A stretch of 64,000 nucleotides of DNA from Pseudonocardia abyssalis (GTDB lineage Bacteria > Actinomycetota > Actinomycetes > Mycobacteriales > Pseudonocardiaceae), in the NCBI RefSeq assembly GCF_019263705.2, contig NZ_JADQDK010000001.1, positions 3,162,001 to 3,226,000 of the forward strand, given 5' to 3'. Below, in pieces: positions 50,593-62,733 of this stretch. Numbering within the stretch: position 1 is the stretch's first letter; every line of letters starts with the position of its first letter. The position numbers and the translations under genes are program-made. Below the pieces are notes generated by a model. It searched no databases and was not told the origin of the DNA. It saw only the letters and a program-made list of their open reading frames with translations.

Positions 50593-50636
50593 GGAGCGGG
50601 CGACGGGAATCGAACCCGCGTAGCCAGTCGGGAAGG
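50593..50636. other. partial duplicate of the tRNA-Gly 3' half (attachment-site-like)
   Basis: Bases 50593-50623 are identical to 51831-51861, the 3' part of the tRNA-Gly(TCC) gene on the minus strand. The similarity continues through cagtcgggaagg with a few changes. It lacks the 5' half of the tRNA, so it is not a gene. This is the expected far end of an element inserted at the 3' end of that tRNA. Confidence 0.7.
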
Positions 50637-50824
50637 TGTCCGATCGGCGCGCACCAGCGCCTCCACCTGCGACGACAGCCGCGCGCGACCCGCCTCCCCG
50701 GCTGCCGAGGTTTCGCACCACGTTCGATCCCATGACCATGACGCGCAGCCCCGACCACCACTACGATCAGACACGTGCTCGCGCCCCAGGAGCACGCACC
50801 CGCGACCGTCGGGAGACGCACACC

Positions 50825-53406: not shown

Positions 53407-53483
53407 CGGGGTGTGGCGCAGCTTGGTAGCGCACTCGCTTTGGGAGCGAGGGGCCGTGGGTTCAAATCCCGCCACCCCGACCA
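53407..53483 (+). tRNA. tRNA-Pro(TGG)
   Basis: The gene folds with acceptor CGGGGTG/CACCCCG, the D arm GCGC/GCGC, an anticodon stem CTCGC/GCGAG with loop TTTGGGA (anticodon TGG), a T arm with GGTTCAAATCC and encoded CCA. Its 3' 43 bp is repeated exactly at 60576-60618 and with changes at 61400 and 62499, which marks it as the integration site of the downstream elements. Confidence 0.95.
53439..53481. other. attachment site attL (3' end of tRNA-Pro)
   Basis: This 43-bp sequence from the anticodon loop to the CCA end is identical to 60576-60618. The integrase gene begins 65 bp to its right in the coordinates, in the usual arrangement. Confidence 0.85.
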
Positions 53484-53546
53484 GGTCAGAGGCATGATCG
53501 ACGATCTTGCCGACCGGTCGACAGCGGTCGGTGACAGCAACGCGGG

Positions 53547-54689
53547 TCATCGGAGTCCGTCCGTGAGCTGGTCGTCGAGCAGGGCGAGCGCGGCGCGCTG
53601 GTTGTCCAGCGAGACGTGCGCGTAGACGTTCATCGTCATCTCGATGGCGGAGTGGCCGACGATCTCCATCACCACCCGCGGACTGACGCCGAGCGCCAGC
53701 AGCAGGCTCACGCACGTGTGCCGCAGGTCGTGCAGCCGGACGCGACGCAGGCCGTGCCCCACGCACAGCGCGTGGAAGGTGCGGGTGAGCGTGCGCGGTT
53801 CGAGCGGCGTGCCCACGGTCGAGGTGAACACGTAGGGCGTGCCCTGCCAGTGCCGGGCGTCTGCCCGCTCTTTGCCCTGGCGCTCCCGGTGGTCGTCGAG
53901 GACCTGGACCAGGAAGGGCAGCAGCGGGACGGTCCGGCGGGACCGCTTGGTCTTGGTCGGCAGCTCCTGCAGCGCTCCGCCGGTGCGTTGCAGCCCGCGG
54001 GTGATCCGCACCGTGCCCTTGACCAGATCGACGTCCGACCAGTGAAGGCCGCACACCTCCGATCGCCGCAGGCCGAGCAGGAGGACGGTCGCCCACAGCG
54101 CGTACAGGCGATGGTCACGGGCCTTGCGCAGGAACTCCCGCGCCTCGTCGACGGTGAACGGCTCGATGGCGGTCACCTTCTCGGGCGTCTCGATGCGCAC
54201 GCCGCGAGCGACGTTGCGCGTCACGAGGTCCTCGGCGAAGGCGTGTTGCAGCGCGACCCGCAGCGTGGAGTGCACCCACTGCACCATCCGCGGGCTCATC
54301 TCCGACCCGCGCATGTCGTCGACCATGATCCGGACGTCCCGGACGGTCAGCCGGCTCAGCTTCTTTGACCCGATGCGGGGCACGAGGTGCAGCCGGACGT
54401 TGTTCTCGTAGCCGGCCACGGTCTGCGGGCGGACGCGGTGCGCCATGTGGACCAGCCACTCGGCGAGGAACTGCTCGACCGTCAGCGTCGTCGAGCCGGC
54501 CGCCATGCCGTCGTTGTGGCGCTTCTGCAGCTCGGCCAGCTTCGCCATGGCCTCCTTGCGGGTCCGCCCGTAGACGTAGCGCCGCTGCACCTTGTTGCCG
54601 ACGGTCCGGACGTAGGCGCCGGCGCACCAGCGGCCGTCCTTGCGCAGCCACACGCTGCCCTCGCCGTTGGCGTTCGCCTTCCTCGTCAC
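53547..54689 (-). CDS. int: tyrosine site-specific integrase
   Basis: The 380-residue recombinase starts at GTG (MTRKANANGEGSVW). It shows an N-terminal AP2-like arm-binding domain (about 8-60), a SAM-like core-binding domain (70-170) and the catalytic domain with Arg208 (LGLRRSEVC), His320-x2-Arg323 (HDLRHTC), His346 (VGHSAIE) and the nucleophile Tyr356 (MNVYAH). The GTG overlaps the excisionase stop by four bases. It would insert the element at tRNA-Pro. Confidence 0.95.
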   Translation of the reverse strand: MTRKANANGEGSVWLRKDGRWCAGAYVRTVGNKVQRRYVYGRTRKEAMAKLAELQKRHNDGMAAGSTTLTVEQFLAEWLVHMAHRVRPQTVAGYENNVRLHLVPRIGSKKLSRLTVRDVRIMVDDMRGSEMSPRMVQWVHSTLRVALQHAFAEDLVTRNVARGVRIETPEKVTAIEPFTVDEAREFLRKARDHRLYALWATVLLLGLRRSEVCGLHWSDVDLVKGTVRITRGLQRTGGALQELPTKTKRSRRTVPLLPFLVQVLDDHRERQGKERADARHWQGTPYVFTSTVGTPLEPRTLTRTFHALCVGHGLRRVRLHDLRHTCVSLLLALGVSPRVVMEIVGHSAIEMTMNVYAHVSLDNQRAALALLDDQLTDGLR

Positions 54690-54895
54690 GCGCTCCTCCG
54701 CTCGTCGAGCAGCCGGCGCATGAACGCGTGCACGGCATCCTCGGGCACGCGGCGGAGACGGCCGATCTTGACGGAGTCCAGCTCCCCGCACCGGATGAGG
54801 TCGAAGACCTTGCTCCGCCCGATGCGCAGCGCGTCGGCCGCTTCCTCGACGGTGAGGAGCAGGCGCAGCGGCGTGGTCGTGCGCGGTTCGGGCAT
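54686..54895 (-). CDS. xis: excisionase-like helix-turn-helix protein
   Basis: The 69-residue protein (MPEPRTTTPLRLLLTVEEAA) has an AlpA/MerR-type winged helix: LTVEEAADALRIGRSKVFDL and GELDSVKIGRLRRVPEDAVH. Such proteins direct the integrase to excise AICEs. Its ATG overlaps the FtsK-like gene stop (TGATG) and its end overlaps int (GTGA). Confidence 0.9.
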   Translation of the reverse strand: MPEPRTTTPLRLLLTVEEAADALRIGRSKVFDLIRCGELDSVKIGRLRRVPEDAVHAFMRRLLDERRSA

Positions 54896-56103
54896 CAGCT
54901 CTCCTTGGTGGCGGTGACGATCGCGTCCCAGTACTCGGAGTAGTCCGGCATCCACGGCGTGCGCAGGCGCCCCGCCTGGCCGGGCGCGTCGTAGAGCGCG
55001 ACGCCGGGCCGGCCGTTGCGCACGTGGTCCTCGGCGGCCGGGACGGACACGGCCGGGTGCAGCAACCGGACCGCGTCGACGTTGTCGACCGGCAGTGAGA
55101 CCCGGTAGGCGAACTGGCCGCGCAGCAGGCCGCCGCCGACCTCGTTGGCCTCGGCCCGCTGCGGCAGCATGATCACGCGGATGCCGACCTTGCCCCCCTC
55201 GGCCGCGAGCCGGCGCGCGGCGACGGCCAGGCGCTCGCGGAGCTTGCGGTCCGCGCCGGCCATGCCGAGCAGGGCGAGCCATTCCTCGAGGACGACGAAC
55301 AGCAGGGGCGTACCGGCGTCGAGCGGGAGCACGTCGGCGCGCTGCGGGATGCGGGCCAGCCGGCCGTCCAGTTCGACCACCAGGGCGTCGAGCATCCGGG
55401 CGTGTGCGTCGACGTCGGCGCCGAGCGACTGCCACCGGGCGTGCCGCGAGCCGGCGAACGGACGGAGCAGCACCGACGACGGGTCGCAGCCGGCGATGAG
55501 CGCGTCCGGCGCGGCCGCGAGCTGCTGCAGGACCGCGTACGACAGCCGCGACTTCCCCGAACCGGTGCGGCCCTGAACGATCAGGTGCACGCGGTCGGCA
55601 AAGGAGATCGTCACCGGCTTGCCGAACTCGTCGGCGCCGAGCAGCACGGGCGCGGTCGCCGACGTCCCCGGCGGCCGGTACGGCAGCGGCATCGGGGTCG
55701 TCAGCGGGTCGCGGACGAGCAGCGCGACCCGGACCCAGCCGTGCCGGAACGGGGTCACGCGGACCATTGGCACGCCCATGCCCTCGGCGAGGCGGTGAGC
55801 CTGGGCGCGGTAGTCGTCGACGACCTGGCCCGGCAGCATCCGGACGACGAGCGTCAGCGGCGGGCCGGCCTCGACCGCGACGAGCTGCGGGACCGACGTG
55901 TGCGGGATACGCGCGGCCGTCACGGTGTGGTGGACGAGGTGGGCGCCGTCGACGGTGTCGGTCCACTGCCACCCGAGGTAGCGCGCGTACTCGTCGAGCT
56001 CGCGAGCCTCCCGGCGCCGGCGCCACCAGGCGACCGGACCTCGTCCCTGCTCGGGGACCGCGGATCGAGCGACGACGGCGGTCGTGTGCGGTTCCAGGGT
56101 CAT
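54895..56103 (-). CDS. FtsK/SpoIIIE-type DNA-translocation ATPase (TraB-like)
   Basis: The 402-residue ATPase starts at ATG with GGAG upstream. Walker A is GRTGSGKS (178-185), Walker B is LLFVVLEEWLAL, and the downstream LPQRAEANEVGGGLL region fits the FtsK/SpoIIIE domain. In AICEs this protein moves double-stranded DNA between mycelial cells. It is shorter than FtsK, without N-terminal membrane helices, so it is a reduced TraB-like form. Confidence 0.88.
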   Translation of the reverse strand: MTLEPHTTAVVARSAVPEQGRGPVAWWRRRREARELDEYARYLGWQWTDTVDGAHLVHHTVTAARIPHTSVPQLVAVEAGPPLTLVVRMLPGQVVDDYRAQAHRLAEGMGVPMVRVTPFRHGWVRVALLVRDPLTTPMPLPYRPPGTSATAPVLLGADEFGKPVTISFADRVHLIVQGRTGSGKSRLSYAVLQQLAAAPDALIAGCDPSSVLLRPFAGSRHARWQSLGADVDAHARMLDALVVELDGRLARIPQRADVLPLDAGTPLLFVVLEEWLALLGMAGADRKLRERLAVAARRLAAEGGKVGIRVIMLPQRAEANEVGGGLLRGQFAYRVSLPVDNVDAVRLLHPAVSVPAAEDHVRNGRPGVALYDAPGQAGRLRTPWMPDYSEYWDAIVTATKES

Positions 56104-56264
56104 CGCTCCGCCCCGCTCTCGACCAGCTCCCCGAGCCACACCCAGCCGCCGCAGTCGGGACAGCCGGCCCGCACGAGCGCGGCGAACTCCGTCGCGGTCG
56201 TGCGGGCCGGCTCCCACACGTGAGGACAGTCCTGACACACGAGAACGGCCGCGCGCTCAGGCAT
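56100..56264 (-). CDS. 54-residue zinc-ribbon protein
   Basis: This short gene (MPERAAVLVCQDCPHVWEPA...) has two CxxC pairs, Cys10-x2-Cys13 and Cys34-x2-Cys37, and a Trp-rich segment GGWVWLGELV. It overlaps the FtsK-like start (ATGA) and the end of the next gene upstream. Its position in a coupled operon and its Cys pattern support a real zinc-binding protein, perhaps a nucleic-acid or partner-binding subunit of the transfer machinery. Confidence 0.75.
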   Translation of the reverse strand: MPERAAVLVCQDCPHVWEPARTTATEFAALVRAGCPDCGGWVWLGELVESGAER

Positions 56265-56688
56265 CGACTCGCTCCGCCCGGTGCCGGGCCAGCGCCCGGA
56301 GCCGGGCGAGGGAGAGGCGGTGCGTCTCGCCGTCGAGCGGGAGACTCAGGAAGCACGCCGTGTCGTTGAGGTCCGGGCCGCGCAAGTGCCCCCACACCGT
56401 GACGCGCACGCCGCCGACGAGGCCGCTCACCTCCAACCGGATGTAGTCCTGGTGCTCGAAGCCGGCGGCCGACGGTTCGGGGAGGGCTTCCCCCCAGGCA
56501 ATGAGTGCGTCGACCTGGTCGGCAACGTCGTGCATCGACAGCTGCAACCGCACGGCCACTCCCGTCGGCCCGCGATGCAGCATCTGCACGGCCGCGATGT
56601 CGGGCAGGTCGTCCAGCGGCAGCGTCAGCAGCCCGGCGCCGACGTCGGCCATGTTCCGGGCCAGGCCCGGGATGCGGTGCTCCATCAC
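56257..56688 (-). CDS. element-encoded hypothetical protein
   Basis: I do not recognise this 143-residue protein (MMEHRIPGLARNMADVGAGL...). It has LPDIAAVQMLHRGPTGVAVR, a central YIRLEVSGLVGGVRVTVWG strand pair and a basic C terminus. It overlaps its neighbours on both sides by a few bases, so it is cotranslated. It is one of the small variable genes often present between rep and tra in AICEs. Confidence 0.65.
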   Translation of the reverse strand: MMEHRIPGLARNMADVGAGLLTLPLDDLPDIAAVQMLHRGPTGVAVRLQLSMHDVADQVDALIAWGEALPEPSAAGFEHQDYIRLEVSGLVGGVRVTVWGHLRGPDLNDTACFLSLPLDGETHRLSLARLRALARHRAERVDA

Positions 56689-57083
56689 GCCGCCCCCTCG
56701 GTCGCGCGCGGCTTGGGCGCCTGGCCGGTCGCCGCGGTGGAACGAAGCGCGCCGGCCCGGTACCAGACCTGGACGCCGGTCACCTGGCCCTCGCGGTTCT
56801 TGCGCTCCATCACGCCGACCTCGAAGTCCAGCAGCTCGACCGGCGTGCCGGGGGCGAGCCCCTCCCCCGGGTCCTTCTCGCTCGTGACGCCGACGTTGAT
56901 CAGCTCACGCTGCGGGCGCCCGAACGCGCGGAACTCCGCCGCGAGCTGGGCGACCCACTTGGGCGTGCCGTCCTTGGCCGTCTCCTGTCGGTAGGGGTCC
57001 CCGAACGCCGTCTTCGGCTCGACGCCGAGCAGCAGGACGGAGCTGAACGTGCGGGTCTGGTCGACCTTGAAGTTCTGGATCAC
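56685..57083 (-). CDS. element-encoded hypothetical protein, first gene of the operon
   Basis: The 132-residue protein starts at GTG (MIQNFKVDQTRTFSSVLLLG) with AAGGAG ten bases upstream. It has alternating strands, GDPYRQETAKDGTPKWVAQL and VELLDFEVGVMERKNREGQV, and a basic tail. This type is common in actinobacterial AICE operons as a protein of unknown role. The next 164 bp upstream form the divergent control region with the XRE gene. Confidence 0.65.
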   Translation of the reverse strand: MIQNFKVDQTRTFSSVLLLGVEPKTAFGDPYRQETAKDGTPKWVAQLAAEFRAFGRPQRELINVGVTSEKDPGEGLAPGTPVELLDFEVGVMERKNREGQVTGVQVWYRAGALRSTAATGQAPKPRATEGAA

Positions 57084-57247
57084 GGTTACTGCACTCCTTG
57101 ACGAGTGAGACGTTCGCGTCCTCGACTGAGGACATCTACGTCCGTAGCGTGGAGGACGTACACGTCCCCTGTCAAGGACAAGTCAGACCTCTAGCTGCGG
57201 ACGGTAGCGTCCGGCTCGCAGGACACGACCGTCCCCCTGCTCAATGG
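57084..57247. promoter_or_regulatory. divergent control region of the element
   Basis: The spacer between the minus-strand transfer operon and the plus-strand XRE gene contains a perfect stem-loop palindrome GTCCTC-gact-GAGGAC (57118-57133), a TTGACA on the minus strand (57170-57175) and several related GTCC/GGAC half-sites. These are probable operators of the XRE regulator and the promoters of both transcripts; exact -10 elements are not clear. Confidence 0.5.
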
Positions 57248-57871
57248 ATGAACAACATGGAGATGAACGAAGTCATCCGGCACCGTCGCAGCGAACTGGG
57301 CATGTCCCAGGGCGACCTGGCCGCCAAGGTCGGCGTTGATCGTCGACAGATCCGCCGCTACGAAGCCGGCGAGACGCAGCCGACGCTGTCGGTCGCGAAG
57401 ACCATCGCCCGCGCTCTCGGCATCACGATCGACGAGCTTGCCGGCGACGAGACCCACCGCATCGACCTCACCGGCGACTGGTGGGCGTGCTGGCAGTCCT
57501 GGAAGGACGGCGTGGAGGTGATCAACCCCCACGAGGTCCGGATGAGCCAGCGCGGCGACAATGTCGAGATCGTGGCCGTCACCCGCGGCACCCCGCTCGA
57601 AGGCGGGGGCTACACGTGGCAGGGCGAAATGCGCGTGTGGGACAACGAGGTCCTCATGGGCTGGTACGTCGCCAACGAAGCCGCCGTTCGGTCCAAAGGA
57701 ACGCTGTACTTCAAGCTCCACCAGCACGGCATCAACGCCGTGGGCCGCTGGGTTGGACTCAGCTATGACGGTCCGATCATCAGCGGGTGGAGCGCACTCG
57801 CGCAGACCAAGGACGAGGTCGTGGCGCTAATGGACAAGTTGAAGGCGGACGAGAAGGTGAGCGCGTCATGA
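57248..57871 (+). CDS. XRE family regulator with C-terminal sensor domain
   Basis: The 207-residue protein has an XRE helix-turn-helix (IRHRRSELGMSQGDLAAKVG, RRQIRRYEAGETQPTLSVAK) and a C-terminal domain of about 130 residues with DLTGDWWACWQSWKDGVEVI, MRVWDNEVLMGWYVANEA and YFKLHQHGINAVGRWVGLSY. This domain is known to me only from AICE regulators and probably senses a ligand or partner. ATG at 57248 is taken as start; 57257 and 57263 are possible. Its stop overlaps the next gene (ATGA). Confidence 0.8.
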   Translation: MNNMEMNEVIRHRRSELGMSQGDLAAKVGVDRRQIRRYEAGETQPTLSVAKTIARALGITIDELAGDETHRIDLTGDWWACWQSWKDGVEVINPHEVRMSQRGDNVEIVAVTRGTPLEGGGYTWQGEMRVWDNEVLMGWYVANEAAVRSKGTLYFKLHQHGINAVGRWVGLSYDGPIISGWSALAQTKDEVVALMDKLKADEKVSAS

Positions 57872-58218
57872 CCGAGCCAGCCCCCGAGCAGCTGGAGTGC
57901 GTCGAGGTCGTCATCACGGCCGAGAGCGCCGAGTGGCTTGCCGACTTCACACGTTCGCTCGTCGAGGGTCGACTAGCGGCCTGCGGCCACCACATCGCGC
58001 CGATCAGGGCCATCTACCGTTGGCAAGGGGACATGTTCGACGAGAGGCAGGCGCGAGTGGGCCTTCACACCCGCGCCACGCTCGTGCCAGAGATCATTGC
58101 TCGTGCTGATCGCGATCACGCAGACGATGTGCCGTGCGTGATCGCGATGCCGATCGTGGGTGGGCACCCGAGATACCTTCAATGGATCTTCGAGGAAACT
58201 CGGTCTCCCGGCGATTAG
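57868..58218 (+). CDS. CutA1-like protein
   Basis: The 116-residue product (MTEPAPEQLECVEVVITAES) resembles CutA1 proteins: SLVEGRLAACGHHIAPIRAI followed by YRWQGDMFDERQARVGLHTR and DVPCVIAMPIVGGHPRYLQW with a C-terminal FEET. CutA1 is a trimer of ferredoxin-like subunits linked to metal tolerance and signalling. On a mobile element next to an XRE regulator it may serve as its partner; this is inference. Confidence 0.8.
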   Translation: MTEPAPEQLECVEVVITAESAEWLADFTRSLVEGRLAACGHHIAPIRAIYRWQGDMFDERQARVGLHTRATLVPEIIARADRDHADDVPCVIAMPIVGGHPRYLQWIFEETRSPGD

Positions 58219-58236
58219 CCGCGGAAGTCCGCTCCC

Positions 58237-58581
58237 TTACTCGCAGACGAGCTGCCGAATCTGCTTGAGCACATCCTGCGCTTCCGACCCGGCACTCTGC
58301 CGAAGTACCTGGTCTCCACCCTCGCTCGGATGGAGCACCGCGTTGATCGTGTCGGCGATCGGAGTCCCCAGCCGGAACAGCCGAACCTCCTCATACTGAT
58401 AAGTCGGCATCTCCTGTGGAAGGTGCCCCAACCCGTTAGCAGCCAACGCGTCGTGGATGGCCTTACGAACATGCACACCGAGCTTTCCATAGCCGTGCGC
58501 ATCCCGCAGGACCTCCATCGTCGTGAGGAGAAGCCCTCCGCCCTGCTCAACCTGCTGACGGAGAACGTCGTACCCTGTCAT
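58237..58581 (-). CDS. element hypothetical protein with own promoter
   Basis: The 114-residue protein (MTGYDVLRQQVEQGGGLLLT) has a perfect ribosome site (AGGAGG). It contains TMEVLRDAHGYGKLGVHVRK and IHDALAANGLGHLPQEMPTY, a helical pattern reminiscent of small winged-helix proteins, and a C-terminal helix. I do not recognise it. It is convergent with the CutA1-like gene and has a strong A/T-rich promoter with an operator-like dyad upstream, so it may be a regulator or maintenance protein. Confidence 0.7.
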   Translation of the reverse strand: MTGYDVLRQQVEQGGGLLLTTMEVLRDAHGYGKLGVHVRKAIHDALAANGLGHLPQEMPTYQYEEVRLFRLGTPIADTINAVLHPSEGGDQVLRQSAGSEAQDVLKQIRQLVCE

Positions 58582-58606
58582 ACCTACCTCCTGATCTAGG
58601 GCTGAT

Positions 58607-58649
58607 TTAGAACGTGATCTAAGTTATATCTCGCCTTAAATTTCGTCAA
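58607..58649 (-). promoter_or_regulatory. promoter and operator-like dyad of the 58237-58581 gene
   Basis: On the minus strand TTGACG (58644-58649) and TATAAC (58623-58628) form -35 and -10 elements with a 15-bp spacer. Just downstream lies TTAGA-x6-TCTAA (58607-58622), a perfect dyad, and repeated TGATCTA units. This A/T-rich patch is exceptional in the window. Confidence 0.6.
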
Positions 58650-58697
58650 GAGCCCGCAGGGCCCTGCCCTGCACCCGGCACCGCTCAGGAGAGGCCG

Positions 58698-58831
58698 GGC
58701 TCTCCCTCACGGCGCACCTGTGGCTATCAGGACCGGTGCCGGGCGCATCGGTCGTTCGTCCAGCGGGGCGCTCCACCGATGCGCCCGACCCCGCTCCTGA
58801 TCGGGCGTTGCCTGCGCCGCGAGGGAGAGCC
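58698..58831. other. nested palindrome beside rep, possible replication origin structure
   Basis: Three pairs of complementary arms are nested: outer 58698-58716 with 58813-58831 (18 of 19 match), middle 58726-58732 with 58795-58801, and inner 58741-58752 with 58775-58786 (12 of 12). They lie in the 265-bp gap between the promoter above and the end of rep. A long foldable structure of this sort next to a rolling-circle initiator could be a single-strand origin or a terminator. Confidence 0.6.
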
Positions 58832-58846
58832 AGCTCGGGCACATGG

Positions 58847-60388
58847 TCATGAAGAACCCGTGGCGAGGTCGGCGAGGTAGCGCGCGAGCTGGGAGGCGAA
58901 CTCGGAGCCGTCGTTGACGCAGACGAACCCGCGCCCGTGCTTGAACAGCTCCTTCCGCACCGTCGAGCGCCGGTAGGTCACGCGGCCTGTCGTCTGCTCG
59001 ACTCGCTGCACGCTGATCGTCTTGGTCAGGCCCTTGGCCCGGTACCAGCGCCGCGCGATGCGGCCGGCCGCGATCCCGACCGCCGGTGTCACCTGCCGGA
59101 TCGCCAGCTCACGGCGCAGGCCGCGGTAGCCCCAGAACCGGCCCACGCTTCCCTCCTCGGTGACGTCGGCGTCGGGGCAGCCGCAGTCCGGGCACTCGTC
59201 GCGGTCGGAGTCGTAGCCAGCCCCGCACTCGGTGCACACGCAGACCGTCGTGAGCCACTCGCGCGGCACCTGATGCTGGTACTCCTTGTCCCCGCCGGTG
59301 CCGTACTTGGCGAAGTACATCGCCATCCGGCGCGGGTCGGTGAGCTTGATGCCCTGCGCGTAGTCCACCCCGGTACCCGCGAGGAGGTGGCGGCGGCGCT
59401 GCTCGGGGTCGGGGTGGCCGACGATGTCGGCCCAGGTGATCGAGAGCCAGCGCCTGAAGTCGACCCGGATCGGCTGGCCGGTGGCCGGGTCGTCGACCAG
59501 CGTCGTGCCCATCGGCGGAGTGGTGGACAGGTGGAAGTGCGGGGCGCCCCGGCGCTGGAACTCCTTCTTCCACGGCCCGCGCAACGGCTCACCCCAGGTC
59601 CGGGCGTACCGCTTGCACAGCGCCTGGAAGTGCTTGGTGGCCGCGTCTGCGGTCGGGGCGACGGTGAGCCAGTCGCCGGGGTAGGTGAGCGTGAGCATGG
59701 CCGGGAGACGGCCGCGCCTGTCCTCGGTGGTGCGGCCGGTGTGGTGGCAGCGGGGGCAGCGGTCGAGCTGCTCGTCGTACTCGTGGCGGCAGCCGGCGCA
59801 GACGTGGAAGCGGCCGTAGAGGTAGGTGTAGTCCAGGTCCGAGAGCCGCTCGACCAGGCGGGCGCGGGAACGCCTCGTCCAGGCGGTGATCGTGCCGCGT
59901 GTGGGCAGGGGCTCGGGCATGTCGCCCTCCCAGGTGGCCGCGATGTCGACGTGCTTGCGGCGCCGCTCGAGGCCGCGCTCGTGGGTGCGTTCCGCCCGGG
60001 CGTAGTCGCGGGTGCGGACGCGGAACACGCCGGGGCTGACGACGATCTCCCAGCGCGGTCCCTCGGTGAGCACGCTCGACTCGCCGACGGCGCCGGCCGC
60101 GATGTGCGGGATCAGGTCGGCCGCGTGCTGCACGAGCTCGGCGCTCGGGAACGAGGGGCACCAGAGCGGAGCCGGCTCGACGTCGAGGGCGTTGTCGTCC
60201 TCAGAGCGGACAGATATGGCACATGTGACAAGCCCTTGCCGGGCCGCCAGGCTCGGCCTGGCACCGGCCGCGCCCCGGGCGTCGCCCGGCCTGCCCGCCG
60301 CTCCTGCCTCCGGCCCGCGGCGGGCGGCCGGCGCCGCCCGGCGCGGCCCGTCGCAGTCGGGCACGGCGGCCCGGAGAGACGTCGTCAT
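58847..60388 (-). CDS. RepSA-like replication initiator
   Basis: The 513-residue protein (MTTSLRAAVPDCD...) matches pSAM2-type initiators: motif MLTLTYPGDW (231-240), HUH motif PHFHLSTTPP (His284, His286) and the catalytic-tyrosine region MAMYFAKY (Tyr358). Two zinc-finger-like Cys sets (CAGCRHEYDEQLDRCPRC and CTECGAGYDSDRDECPDC) flank the core. It nicks the element origin for rolling-circle-type replication. The first 50 residues are Ala/Arg/Gly-rich and the start is uncertain. Confidence 0.9.
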   Translation of the reverse strand: MTTSLRAAVPDCDGPRRAAPAARRGPEAGAAGRPGDARGAAGARPSLAARQGLVTCAISVRSEDDNALDVEPAPLWCPSFPSAELVQHAADLIPHIAAGAVGESSVLTEGPRWEIVVSPGVFRVRTRDYARAERTHERGLERRRKHVDIAATWEGDMPEPLPTRGTITAWTRRSRARLVERLSDLDYTYLYGRFHVCAGCRHEYDEQLDRCPRCHHTGRTTEDRRGRLPAMLTLTYPGDWLTVAPTADAATKHFQALCKRYARTWGEPLRGPWKKEFQRRGAPHFHLSTTPPMGTTLVDDPATGQPIRVDFRRWLSITWADIVGHPDPEQRRRHLLAGTGVDYAQGIKLTDPRRMAMYFAKYGTGGDKEYQHQVPREWLTTVCVCTECGAGYDSDRDECPDCGCPDADVTEEGSVGRFWGYRGLRRELAIRQVTPAVGIAAGRIARRWYRAKGLTKTISVQRVEQTTGRVTYRRSTVRKELFKHGRGFVCVNDGSEFASQLARYLADLATGSS

Positions 60389-60575
60389 GCGCTCTGTCCG
60401 AACAGGACGGGCGCAGCGTCGTCGAGGTGCTCCGCGGTGTTCTCGTCCGCCGCCGGGTGCTGACGGGCTGACAGCGATCTGTGACAGCAACGGTCGCGCA
60501 CGGAGCCGTATCCGGGGCCACTCCCCCGCACATCTTCCGGCTGGTGGCGGACGGTGCCGGACCCCGTGGTCTCGG

Positions 60576-60618
60576 TTTGGGAGCGAGGGGCCGTGGGTTC
60601 AAATCCCGCCACCCCGAC
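60576..60618. other. attachment site attR (copy of tRNA-Pro 3' end)
   Basis: This 43-bp sequence equals 53439-53481 exactly but has no 5' half of a tRNA. It closes the 7.2-kb element and is followed by the remains of others. The surrounding 60389-60741 region has no gene. Confidence 0.85.
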
Positions 60619-60669
60619 GACATCCGACCTGCGGAAACGGGTCGGTGCTACGTCGCCCGATGATCGAGA

Positions 60670-60690
60670 TGTAGCAGTTGCTGTAGCAGT
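60670..60690. repeat. direct repeats of tgtagcagt near attR
   Basis: The 9-mer tgtagcagt occurs at 60670-60678 and 60682-60690, and again at 61285-61293 near the next attachment copy. Spacing of 12 bp and closeness to att sites suggest integrase or excisionase arm-binding sites. Confidence 0.45.
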
Positions 60691-60741
60691 AGCTCCCGCA
60701 ACCGCGTGGACCGTGGCGGCCTGACCTGCTCTGATCGACGT

Positions 60742-60960
60742 ATGGCAACCGGGGTCGTGAGGTTCTACAAGGCCGAGAAGGGCTGGGGCGCGATCAGCAG
60801 CCCGGAGCTGCCCGACGGCCTCGACGCCTTCGTCCACTTCAGCGCCATCGAAGCCGAGGGCTACAGGGCGTTCGAGCAGGGCGACCAGGTCGAGTTCGAC
60901 TACGAGCCGGCCCAGCAGGACAGCTTCCGGTTCCGCGCGACGCGCGCACGACGCCTCTGA
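60742..60960 (+). CDS. cold-shock domain protein
   Basis: The 72-residue protein (MATGVVRFYKAEKGWGAISS) has the OB-fold layout with RNP1-like KGWGAI (usually KGFGFI) and RNP2-like AFVHFS, ending in FRATRARRL. It binds single-stranded nucleic acid. The two changes in RNP1 (Trp and Ala in place of Phe) are unusual for housekeeping Csp proteins. It lies among integrative-element remnants, so it may be cargo. Confidence 0.85.
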   Translation: MATGVVRFYKAEKGWGAISSPELPDGLDAFVHFSAIEAEGYRAFEQGDQVEFDYEPAQQDSFRFRATRARRL

Positions 60961-60968
60961 CACCTGGC

Positions 60969-61285
60969 TCATCCCGCCTCCCACTCGATCGCATCGAGCG
61001 CCTGGCACATCTCGTCCATGTTGGTGTGTGCGTAGATCGTCATGGTCACGTCGATGTCGGCGTGCCGGGCGATGGCCTGCACGACGTGCGGCGGCGTCCC
61101 GAGCGACAGCAACGAGCTGACGACGGTGTGCCGCAGGTCGTGCAGCCGAACGCCAGGAAGGCCGGCGCGGAGACGGAGCTTGTCGAAGTCGCGGTTCAGC
61201 GCGCGCGGTTCGAGCGGGTGCCGACCTGCGTGCAGAACACAAGGTCGTGGTCCTGCCAACACTCCCCCGCGGCGGCGGTCGGCAT
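60969..61285 (-). pseudogene. integrase C-terminal fragment, frameshifted
   Basis: On the minus strand LNRDFDKLRLRAGLPGVRLH then DLRHTVVSSLLSLGTPPHVV and HADIDVTMTIYAHTNMDEMC carry the His-x2-Arg, His and Tyr of a tyrosine recombinase catalytic domain. The stretch before it (WQDHDLVFCTQVGT) is in another frame, and the N-terminal two-thirds are missing. It resembles the intact integrase at 53547-54689 and is the remnant of an older element's int. Confidence 0.75.
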
Positions 61286-61399
61286 GTAGCAGTTCTGTAG
61301 CAACGGGGCGTTGTACGCCACCGTCGGGAGCCGTCTCGCGAGAGTGTCTCCGCAGCTCAGACGACCAGGAGAGCCGGAGCGAGACCGTTCCGGCGTGAT

Positions 61400-61446
61400 T
61401 CGGGAGCGAGGGGCCGTGGGTTCGAATCCCGCCACCCCGACCAGGT
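61400..61446. other. third attachment-site copy
   Basis: The tRNA-Pro 3' end recurs with a single base change inside the T arm (ttcgaat for ttcaaat). The following bases (ccaggt, then gatcggcgatcttgc) also resemble the sequence to the right of tRNA-Pro, so the match extends beyond the tRNA. It marks the end of an older element. Confidence 0.75.
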
Positions 61447-61549
61447 GAACGGCACGATCGGCGATCTTGCTGGGCGCGGGATCGGCCGGCACGGAGCAAC
61501 GGGCCTCAACTCTGTTGCCGGGCCGGTACCCCCGCCCGACGATCGACCG

Positions 61550-61912
61550 ATGACCGACGACCCCGACCTCCAGGACGTCATCGACCGCGAGCTGAGGCTG
61601 CAGGACCCCGTCGTGCGGCAGGCGCCCGAGTTGGGCGGCCGGCTGCTGGACCCGGATTTCCATGAGTTCGGCGCATCCGGCCGCGTGTGGGACCGCGCAT
61701 CGATCCTCGCCATGATGGCCGACGACGAGGCTCCCCCACCCGTCACGGACGAGTTGGCCGCGACCCGCCTCGCCGACGACGTCGTCCTCCTCACCTACCG
61801 CACCCGACGCCCCGGCCAGACCGCGCTTCGAAGCTCGGTCTGGCGCCGCCACGGCGACGGCCCCTGGCGGGTCTACTTCCACCAGGCCACCGTCCTGCCC
61901 CCGGCCGGGTGA
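61550..61912 (+). CDS. DUF4440/SnoaL-like protein
   Basis: The 120-residue protein (MTDDPDLQDVIDRELRLQDP) shows DPDFHEFGASGRVWDRASIL, ADDVVLLTYRTRRPGQTALR and a closing WRVYFHQATVL, the NTF2-like fold pattern of DUF4440. Such proteins are enzymes or binding modules of unknown substrate. It is cargo inside the remnant region. Confidence 0.8.
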   Translation: MTDDPDLQDVIDRELRLQDPVVRQAPELGGRLLDPDFHEFGASGRVWDRASILAMMADDEAPPPVTDELAATRLADDVVLLTYRTRRPGQTALRSSVWRRHGDGPWRVYFHQATVLPPAG

Positions 61913-61956
61913 CATCAGATATCCCGATCGATCCTGTCCAGCGCTTCGCGCATGGT

Positions 61957-62254
61957 GCCGGATCTCCCCCGCGTCGACGCGCTCCTTGCCCTGCCGGTCC
62001 AGATGCTCGACCAGCACCCGCCGCGTGATCTTCGGGAGCAGTACGGTCAGGCGCTTCACCTCCGGGAGCTGCACGCCCTTGCCGACCTCGTAGCGCGGAG
62101 TCGGGATCTGCACGAGATCGGCGACGTTGCGCGGCACCAGCTCGTCACGCTCGGCGCTGCTCGGCGCGTTCCGCGGAACGGCGTGGATGAACTGCATCTG
62201 ACTCCCGGACGGGGCGACGGTGAGCTGGTCGCCGGGGCAGGTCGGCGTGAGCAT
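61957..62254 (-). pseudogene. fused remnants of a rep and an integrase gene
   Basis: The minus strand starts like the initiator core (MLTPTCPGDQLTVAPSGSQ, compare MLTLTYPGDWLTVAPTADA of the intact rep). It then passes into integrase-like VPRNVADLVQIPTPRYEVGK and, out of its usual order, VLVEHLDRQGKERVDAGE, which equals an internal part of the intact int. Large deletions have joined the pieces. The frame is open here but the product cannot be functional. Confidence 0.65.
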
Positions 62255-62733
62255 GGCCGGGATCCGGGGGCAGCCGGCCGCCCGGCCCGGCGGTCCGAAG
62301 AGGCGGCCCGGAAGAGCAGTCCCCTGTTCGACGGTGCCCCGTGATCACGAGGTCGACCCGCGTCGAGCTTGACGGGGCGGCAAGGGCCGGCGTCGTGTAG
62401 CAGCCGGACCCGCGGTCGATCCCATCCGGCGACGGCCGGAAGTACCGACGCTGCTCATGGACCCCTGCGGACCTCCGCAGACACGTTGCCCTGGATGCGG
62501 GAGCCGGGGGCCGTGGGTTCTCCTCCCGCCACCCCGACCAGGTCGCGGGACGGTGCACACGTGTCCCTCGGCATCGGCCCGCACGAGATGACGCGACCCT
62601 CGAAATCTCCGGGAAAGTCCACATCGCGATCGGTCTTGACATCGCGTGGACAATGAAAAATCGGCGTGTCCACCATTAACTGGAATGGGAGACCCGCCGA
62701 ACCTGGATTGAGTTAAACACCGTGGGGGGCTTC
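62255..62733. other. non-coding region holding the last attachment copy and the HelD leader
   Basis: No gene is supported in these 479 bp. They hold short rep-like fragments in other frames, the fourth att copy (62499-62543) and an A/T-richer patch (62640-62720) before the helicase gene, with TTGACA at 62636-62641 as a possible -35 element. Confidence 0.5.
62499..62543. other. fourth attachment-site copy, degenerate
   Basis: The sequence gggagccgggggccgtgggt and then cctcccgccaccccgaccaggt follow the tRNA-Pro end with several base changes. It is the outermost edge of the element stack and lies 190 bp before the helicase gene. Confidence 0.65.

Follow-up and report, generated by a model that had tools for sequence, protein, structure and literature searches.

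The window analysed here, a stretch of 64,000 nt from Pseudonocardia abyssalis (NZ_JADQDK010000001.1, forward strand 3,162,001-3,226,000), contains a small element integrated in a tRNA-Pro gene. We think it likely that this is a compact, mobile-looking actinomycete integrative and conjugative element (AICE) whose switch is an operon of two genes, encoding an XRE-family regulator and a CutA1 protein, on an array of six operators. The element has an integrase adjoining an attachment (att) site, a translocase of the Tra type (PF01580), a replication initiator within the unit and direct repeats in the 3' end of the tRNA gene. Because int, tra and rep lie between tRNA att sites, a relative has the empty site and another species has a near-copy at the same tRNA, the assignment to the AICEs, already made in an earlier note on this DNA, is supported by the sequence. 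Taken alone, a compact new AICE is of modest interest, and no Pseudonocardia AICE was found in the open-licence literature. More notable is the recurrence of the XRE-CutA1 switch and its phased array, which seem not to have been described before: within the searches made of that literature, no account of the module or of a GGAC-N6-GTCC operator was found.

The XRE-CutA1 pair and its candidate operator array

The CutA1 gene is no stray partner but one half of a recurrent pair. An XRE homologue was present at E <= 1e-20 in 14 of 62 Pseudonocardia genomes and a CutA1 gene followed it in 14/14 cases, two of which have a truncated XRE, one of these with a partial CutA1. In 10 of the 13 pairs examined, CutA1 has a possible start codon that makes it overlap XRE by 4 bp. 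In a family sample of 100 genomes most XRE matches were plain helix-turn-helix (HTH) matches; the four best beyond the genome itself comprise two full-length ones with CutA1 and two damaged or partial ones (L166, L167) without it. A class sample of 296 genomes, with at most 10 candidates scored per genome, gave matches in 10 further genomes, one full-length and with CutA1 (L197) and nine to the barrel region only, which were not counted as pairs (four of the nine were inspected). XRE homologues with 32-37% identity also occur on mycobacterial plasmids; no CutA1 is annotated beside them in two records with an incomplete gene table, and none was found by tblastn in one of the two. Two loci from another family (L198, L200) join the barrel domain to an HTH-like N-terminus of a different kind; the neighbouring gene there reads like a radical-SAM hopanoid gene, presumably hpnH.

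The elements that carry the pair have diverged int and tra genes; their int, tra and rep belong to lineages other than those of the window, and their target sites are several. Long flanking repeats, spaced 5.2-12.3 kb, were obtained at 7 of the 11 loci tested (L101, L193, the window, L087, L099, L194, L096), the targets being tRNA-Pro, tRNA-Lys and apparently the end of a ligase-like gene, where the flanking frame was read by eye. Two loci (L093, L095) gave just 14-15-bp matches and two (L094, L100) none. A clear RepSA, above the PF20199 cut-off, is present in L095, L101, L193 and L194.

The genus, family and class samples together yielded 22 CutA1 genes of the element type, 16 of them beside a substantial XRE. 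Their products form one group, in which Glu 90 and Lys 67, constant in 10/10 ordinary CutA1s compared, are absent in 22/22. This bears on the reading of CutA1 as an ordinary metal-tolerance cargo gene that adjoins the repressor by chance. For that reading speak the CutA1-like gene of the Frankia AICE FeuI6863, taken as possible heavy-metal resistance in the available part of its description (PMC3218068), the element-type CutA1 genes without XRE, and the two CutA1 matches in the host genome, the second about 2 kb from another integrase. The missing residues, the 4-bp overlaps and the variation of the genes past CutA1 (orf114 in the window, but an AAA_15 ATPase gene in L021 and a methyltransferase gene in L107) make it unlikely. 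The second CutA1 match of the host genome, near a tRNA-Thr and an integrase (L159:7973-18580, approximately 5313973-5324580 of the contig), lies in a region that also holds a long HTH regulator on the opposite strand and a TraG/TraD-type coupling protein (PF12696, PF02534).

The 164 bp between the XRE gene and the pra-like gene hold six GGAC-N6-GTCC palindromes, four exact and two with one mismatch, which start at 57108, 57130, 57154, 57176, 57199 and 57221 and are therefore spaced by 22, 24, 22, 23 and 22 bp. The earlier note did not mention this array. Mononucleotide shuffles of this region gave 0.10 at up to one mismatch. Chance palindromes were considered and set aside: the motif is not enriched window-wide (92 found at up to one mismatch, 85.7 expected, with 25 of 100 shuffles reaching 92), and what is unusual is the cluster and its phase. 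An array, defined as at least two sites whose steps are 21-24 bp or roughly double this, lies upstream of the CutA1-linked XRE in 14 of 15 regions, although these are non-independent and, because they chain by DNA similarity, reduce to about five groups (the window and L021; L093-L098, L100, L101, L193 and L194 chained; L089, L197 and L099 each alone), four of them with the array. The array of L101 has one further step of 30 bp, and L197, with an array, comes from a genome of another family. No site was found in 12 control regulator regions (8 GntR-type or other elements), which at 75-292 bp are on the whole shorter than the 15 XRE-type regions of 146-355 bp. There is thus good comparative evidence that the GGAC-N6-GTCC palindromes are candidate sites of the XRE protein, set on one helix face. 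The six predicted operators lie upstream of the Pra-like gene, for which the match to the SCO3933 profile has an E of 2e-4 yet falls under the cut-off.

The XRE protein is predicted by AlphaFold2 models to combine an HTH with an 8-stranded beta-barrel. Fold comparison points to no specific barrel ligand, as designed barrels, a quinohemoprotein amine dehydrogenase domain and Cap15 fall within about 1 Z of each other, with avidins next at about 10. In comparison with Cap15, a receptor of the cyclic oligonucleotide-based antiphage signalling system, and with avidin-like small barrels, the barrel here is fused to a repressor HTH, and the common fold shows no function.

Integration, gene content and history

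The att cores are identical over 43 bp and 7137 bp apart, and the perfect repeats of the tRNA-Pro 3' end described before were recovered, with the first copy inside the ARAGORN tRNA-Pro(TGG). The chance of a 43-bp exact match within 64 kb is negligible. The end of int is 65 bp from attL. In a search with a chromosomal gene, 26 other genomes had a match; of the seven regions inspected two contain the tRNA core. One, in a close relative with 97% identity in the neighbouring chromosomal gene (G026), is an empty tRNA-Pro site, in which the tRNA is followed by about 50 bp and then by sequence matching window position 62715 onward, so that 53484-62714 is absent. The other (G052) has integrase-like sequence after the tRNA-Pro core. 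In P. hydrocarbonoxydans NBRC 14498 (L021/L087) this element is present at the corresponding tRNA-Pro, with a 54-bp repeat at 8.6-kb spacing. No close relative was seen to have this gene order and lack the repeats, which the earlier note had named as evidence that would tell against an integrative element; this one near-copy has its repeats.

Ten element proteins were scanned with profile searches scored against curated cut-offs (Table 1). The minus-strand genes int-xis-tra-zn-orf143-pra are chained by overlaps and are followed by plus-strand XRE-CutA1 and minus-strand orf114 and rep; coupling by overlap, proposed for nearly the whole set, thus holds for the first six genes and for XRE/CutA1 but not for orf114 and rep, with start codons as chosen here. 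The profiles bear out the proposed int, xis, FtsK-like, XRE and CutA1-like genes, and a RepSA-like rep only weakly (24.2 bits against PF20199, cut-off 34). Rep has the motifs PHFHL and YFAKY, which we take to be its HUH and Y..K motifs. No spread genes were found among the element proteins in the profile searches, in agreement with the earlier note as far as such searches reach; Tra is likely to be the product of the FtsK-like gene. The family of orf114 comprises 24 proteins at E <= 1e-3, counting orf114 itself, and no function is named for any of them; orf114 was not found in the P. hydrocarbonoxydans copy (L021).

Table 1. Features of the element and of the adjoining units (positions in the window)
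Feature	Position	Strand	Basis or remark
tRNA-Pro (TGG), integration target	53407..53483	+	ARAGORN
attL core, 43 bp	53439..53481	+	exact repeat; 3' part of tRNA-Pro(TGG)
int, tyrosine integrase, 380 aa	53547..54689	-	PF00589 Phage_integrase 96.4 bits, cut-off 27.1
xis, excisionase-like HTH, 69 aa	54686..54895	-	HTH_17 45.3 bits, cut-off 27; TIGR01764 excisionase
tra, FtsK/SpoIIIE (TraB-like) DNA translocase, 402 aa	54895..56103	-	PF01580 31.7 bits, cut-off 24; weak NF041214 TraB
zn, small Cys-rich protein, 54 aa	56100..56264	-	zinc-ribbon matches all below cut-off; kept in relatives
orf143	56257..56688	-	kept in some relatives
Pra/SCO3933-like activator, 132 aa	56685..57083	-	NF051478 SCO3933 family 21.5 bits, cut-off 80, E 2e-4
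Array of six 14-bp palindromes GGAC-N6-GTCC	57108..57234		between pra and XRE
XRE regulator, 207 aa	57248..57871	+	HTH_3 PF01381 60.7 bits, cut-off 23; AlphaFold2 models, fold comparisons
CutA1, element-type group, 116 aa	57868..58218	+	PF03091 84.2 bits, cut-off 22.4; 4-bp overlap with XRE
orf114, variable cargo slot, orphan family	58237..58581	-	homologue search
rep, HUH-type initiator	58847..60490	-	PF23343 REP_ORF2-G2P 31.6 bits, cut-off 27.8; start codon unsure
attR core, 43 bp	60576..60618	+	exact repeat
Degraded second unit	60619..61398		cold-shock gene 60742-60960 (+); integrase C-terminal fragment 60984-61279 (-)
Third att-like copy, 2 mismatches	61399..61441	+	repeat search
Degraded third unit	61442..62495		integrase fragments 61970-62212 (-); rep fragment 62192-62266 (-)
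Fourth att-like copy, 7 mismatches	62496..62538	+	repeat search

The description "unusually reduced" fits when the element is set against the AICEs and defective AICEs of one Streptomyces population, given as 11.9-36.3 kb in the available text (PMC9513070), but not in that the Int-Tra-Rep set is complete and smaller att-bounded XRE-CutA1 elements exist (L101 and L193, 5.2 and 6.2 kb). In these two, similarity searches with two Tra queries found no tra. Together with the small size, the spread genes not found and the weak score of Tra against the TraB profile, this would suit an element that is only mobilizable and needs another element for transfer. We consider that improbable, as Tra is a full-length FtsK-type protein that shares 41% identity with one encoded on the 8-kb plasmid pPA43082.

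The P. hydrocarbonoxydans element resembles ours in int, tra and pra (98-99% identical), in XRE-CutA1 at the same slot and in a six-operator array. It differs in its length of 8.6 kb, in an AAA_15 ATPase cargo in place of orf114 and in a CutA1 with just 77% identity. The best PADLOC match of the ATPase in this cargo slot (L021:11643-13485) is PD-T4-4_A (E 3e-35); for the 203-aa product of a second cargo gene PADLOC gave no match, and the cargo is possibly defence. Synonymous divergence (dS) between the two copies is 0.110 for int, 0.037 for xis, 0.127 for tra and 0.130 for the pra-like gene, and the dS of a chromosomal flank gene between the same two hosts is 0.393. Because the values of these four genes are below that of the flank gene, the data suggest, on the basis of this one chromosomal gene, that the core of the element is younger than the host split. 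The dS is higher for zn (0.228), rep (0.259), orf143 (0.332), xre (0.354) and cutA1 (1.302), and a more mixed history is suggested for the switch genes, CutA1 above all.

Downstream of attR, beyond the interval of the earlier note, two extra att-like copies bound two degraded units, and the tRNA-Pro site has been used at least three times. A cold-shock gene is trapped inside the first of these units. That the adjoining units are fragmentary, and that the att copies show repeated past insertion and decay at this site, could mean that the element itself is a dead or dying relic. This is improbable, since none of the core frames is interrupted, attL and attR have the same core sequence, and the ratio of non-synonymous to synonymous divergence, measured against the P. 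hydrocarbonoxydans element, comes to 0.08 in int and 0.04 in tra, both of which are closer than the flank gene of the hosts. The element is probably still mobile. Elsewhere in the window, at 50593-50670 on the minus strand, ARAGORN places a tRNA-like gene whose anticodon has two bases (cc) and which is possibly spurious.

The regulator slot and a proposed switch

In pSAM2 the GntR protein KorSA represses pra and the Nudix protein Pif, a conjugal immunity factor (PMC3218068), blocks redundant transfer (PMC8584621, PMC3218068). SCO3932 binds a region shared with SCO3933, a Pra homologue (PMC8584621). These statements are drawn from the available parts of the two papers. Searching the genus with the part of rep that begins at 60268 gave a match in 18 of 62 genomes. 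Between the cargo and the SCO3933-like gene, a GntR gene and a divergent Nudix gene are found in L022/L102, L105, L111, L112 and L113 (confirmed by profile for the L022 GntR, the L022 Nudix and the L105 Nudix). In the window and in P. hydrocarbonoxydans, XRE and CutA1 occupy this slot, and none of the ten element proteins scanned has a GntR or Nudix family match. By analogy of position, XRE corresponds to KorSA and CutA1 to Pif. No locus with both pairs intact was found among the loci examined, the absence of GntR and Nudix from XRE-CutA1 elements being judged with one query of each kind. In L088:9532-10541 (G017) a truncated XRE, a CutA1 and a Nudix match that is split over two overlapping parts lie side by side.

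From this anatomy we infer how the element may work. Int would insert it into tRNA-Pro, and Int together with Xis would excise it. The HUH-type Rep would copy the excised circle, and the FtsK-type Tra would move the element as double-stranded DNA. XRE would bind the six-operator array and silence both xre and the pra-like gene, as KorSA does on pra in pSAM2, and its release would turn on the pra-tra-xis-int operon. CutA1 would be made by translational coupling with XRE. Because its slot is the Pif-like Nudix slot of sister elements, CutA1 most likely serves the regulatory and immunity layer, in conjugal immunity or co-regulation, and not metal tolerance. Against XRE-CutA1 as a toxin-antitoxin or anti-phage module in place of a master switch, no PADLOC model matched CutA1 at E 0.01, and the 17 models matching XRE fit its HTH part. 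The operators, moreover, are directed at the Pra-like gene in the manner of KorSA sites, and apart from them the element has a single exact site, which is within xre. We give such a module the lowest likelihood of the alternatives. The metal-cargo, toxin-antitoxin and defence readings are all ranked below that of an XRE-CutA1 switch.

We speculate further, with a likelihood somewhat short of even, that XRE-CutA1 is an undescribed AICE regulatory and immunity module, made of a barrel-sensor repressor acting on the phased array and a repurposed CutA1, and swapped against GntR-Nudix as a cassette. This CutA1 might read a small-molecule signal on behalf of the repressor or block the entry of a second copy, the task of Pif, an unrelated Nudix protein, in pSAM2.

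Several observations weigh against this picture of the switch and the element. The slot varies: in L110 it holds GntR with no Nudix match, in L104 and L107 a long regulator besides a short GntR-like match (the regulator of L104 with a weak HTH match), and in L114 a distant Nudix only. L099 has the XRE-CutA1 pair with no operator at up to one mismatch, and the other array regions are related as described above. Of the 22 element-type CutA1 genes, four have no detected XRE and two lie beside short XRE remnants, and CutA1 can therefore be kept alone. Both the RepSA and the SCO3933 profiles score under their cut-offs. The dS comparison leans on a single chromosomal gene, and xre, orf143 and cutA1 are outside the low core values.

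If the cassette reading is true, a second, unrelated family fills the Pif slot and goes together with a repressor that has a ligand-type barrel and with a sharply defined candidate operator. It would also provide a simple soil-bacterial system for testing immunity and switch release. XRE-CutA1 together with the GGAC-N6-GTCC array would be a search mark for such elements, and the switch offers a testable link to conjugal immunity of the Pif type, the mechanism of which was stated in 2011 to be not known, in the portion of that account available (PMC3218068).

Comparison with known systems

With the pSAM2/SCO3937-type AICEs, as far as the available descriptions go, the element shares an integrase or int-xis, a Rep, an FtsK-type Tra and, as predicted, a Pra-like activator with a repressor that acts in front of its gene (PMC8584621, PMC3218068). 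It differs in that it has XRE and CutA1 where those have the GntR protein KorSA and the Nudix protein Pif, that its Rep is under the RepSA profile cut-off and that it is 7.1 kb long. XRE, GntR and Nudix genes are all named as AICE parts in the available text of another paper (PMC11706625). XRE regulators occur in 11 of 16 Frankia AICEs, some adjoining Nudix, and an mdp-nud-xre cluster is described, but a CutA1 partner and an operator array are not in that description in its available part (PMC3218068). The Frankia AICE FeuI6863, compared by description alone, likewise bears a CutA1-like gene, but an XRE-CutA1 operon is not part of what the same account gives for it (PMC3218068).

The 8-kb plasmid pPA43082 of P. 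autotrophica (L222) has pra-like, zn and tra genes that are 38-45% identical and kept in order, but it has no int match, a GntR regulator, a ParA and a Rep without match to the element rep; its gene order is GntR, pra-like, zn, tra and rep. The AICE of P. oceani KRD185 (L022) has a rep 90% identical to that of our element and the same gene order, whereas its int and tra are of another lineage and GntR and Nudix occupy the slot that XRE and CutA1 hold here.

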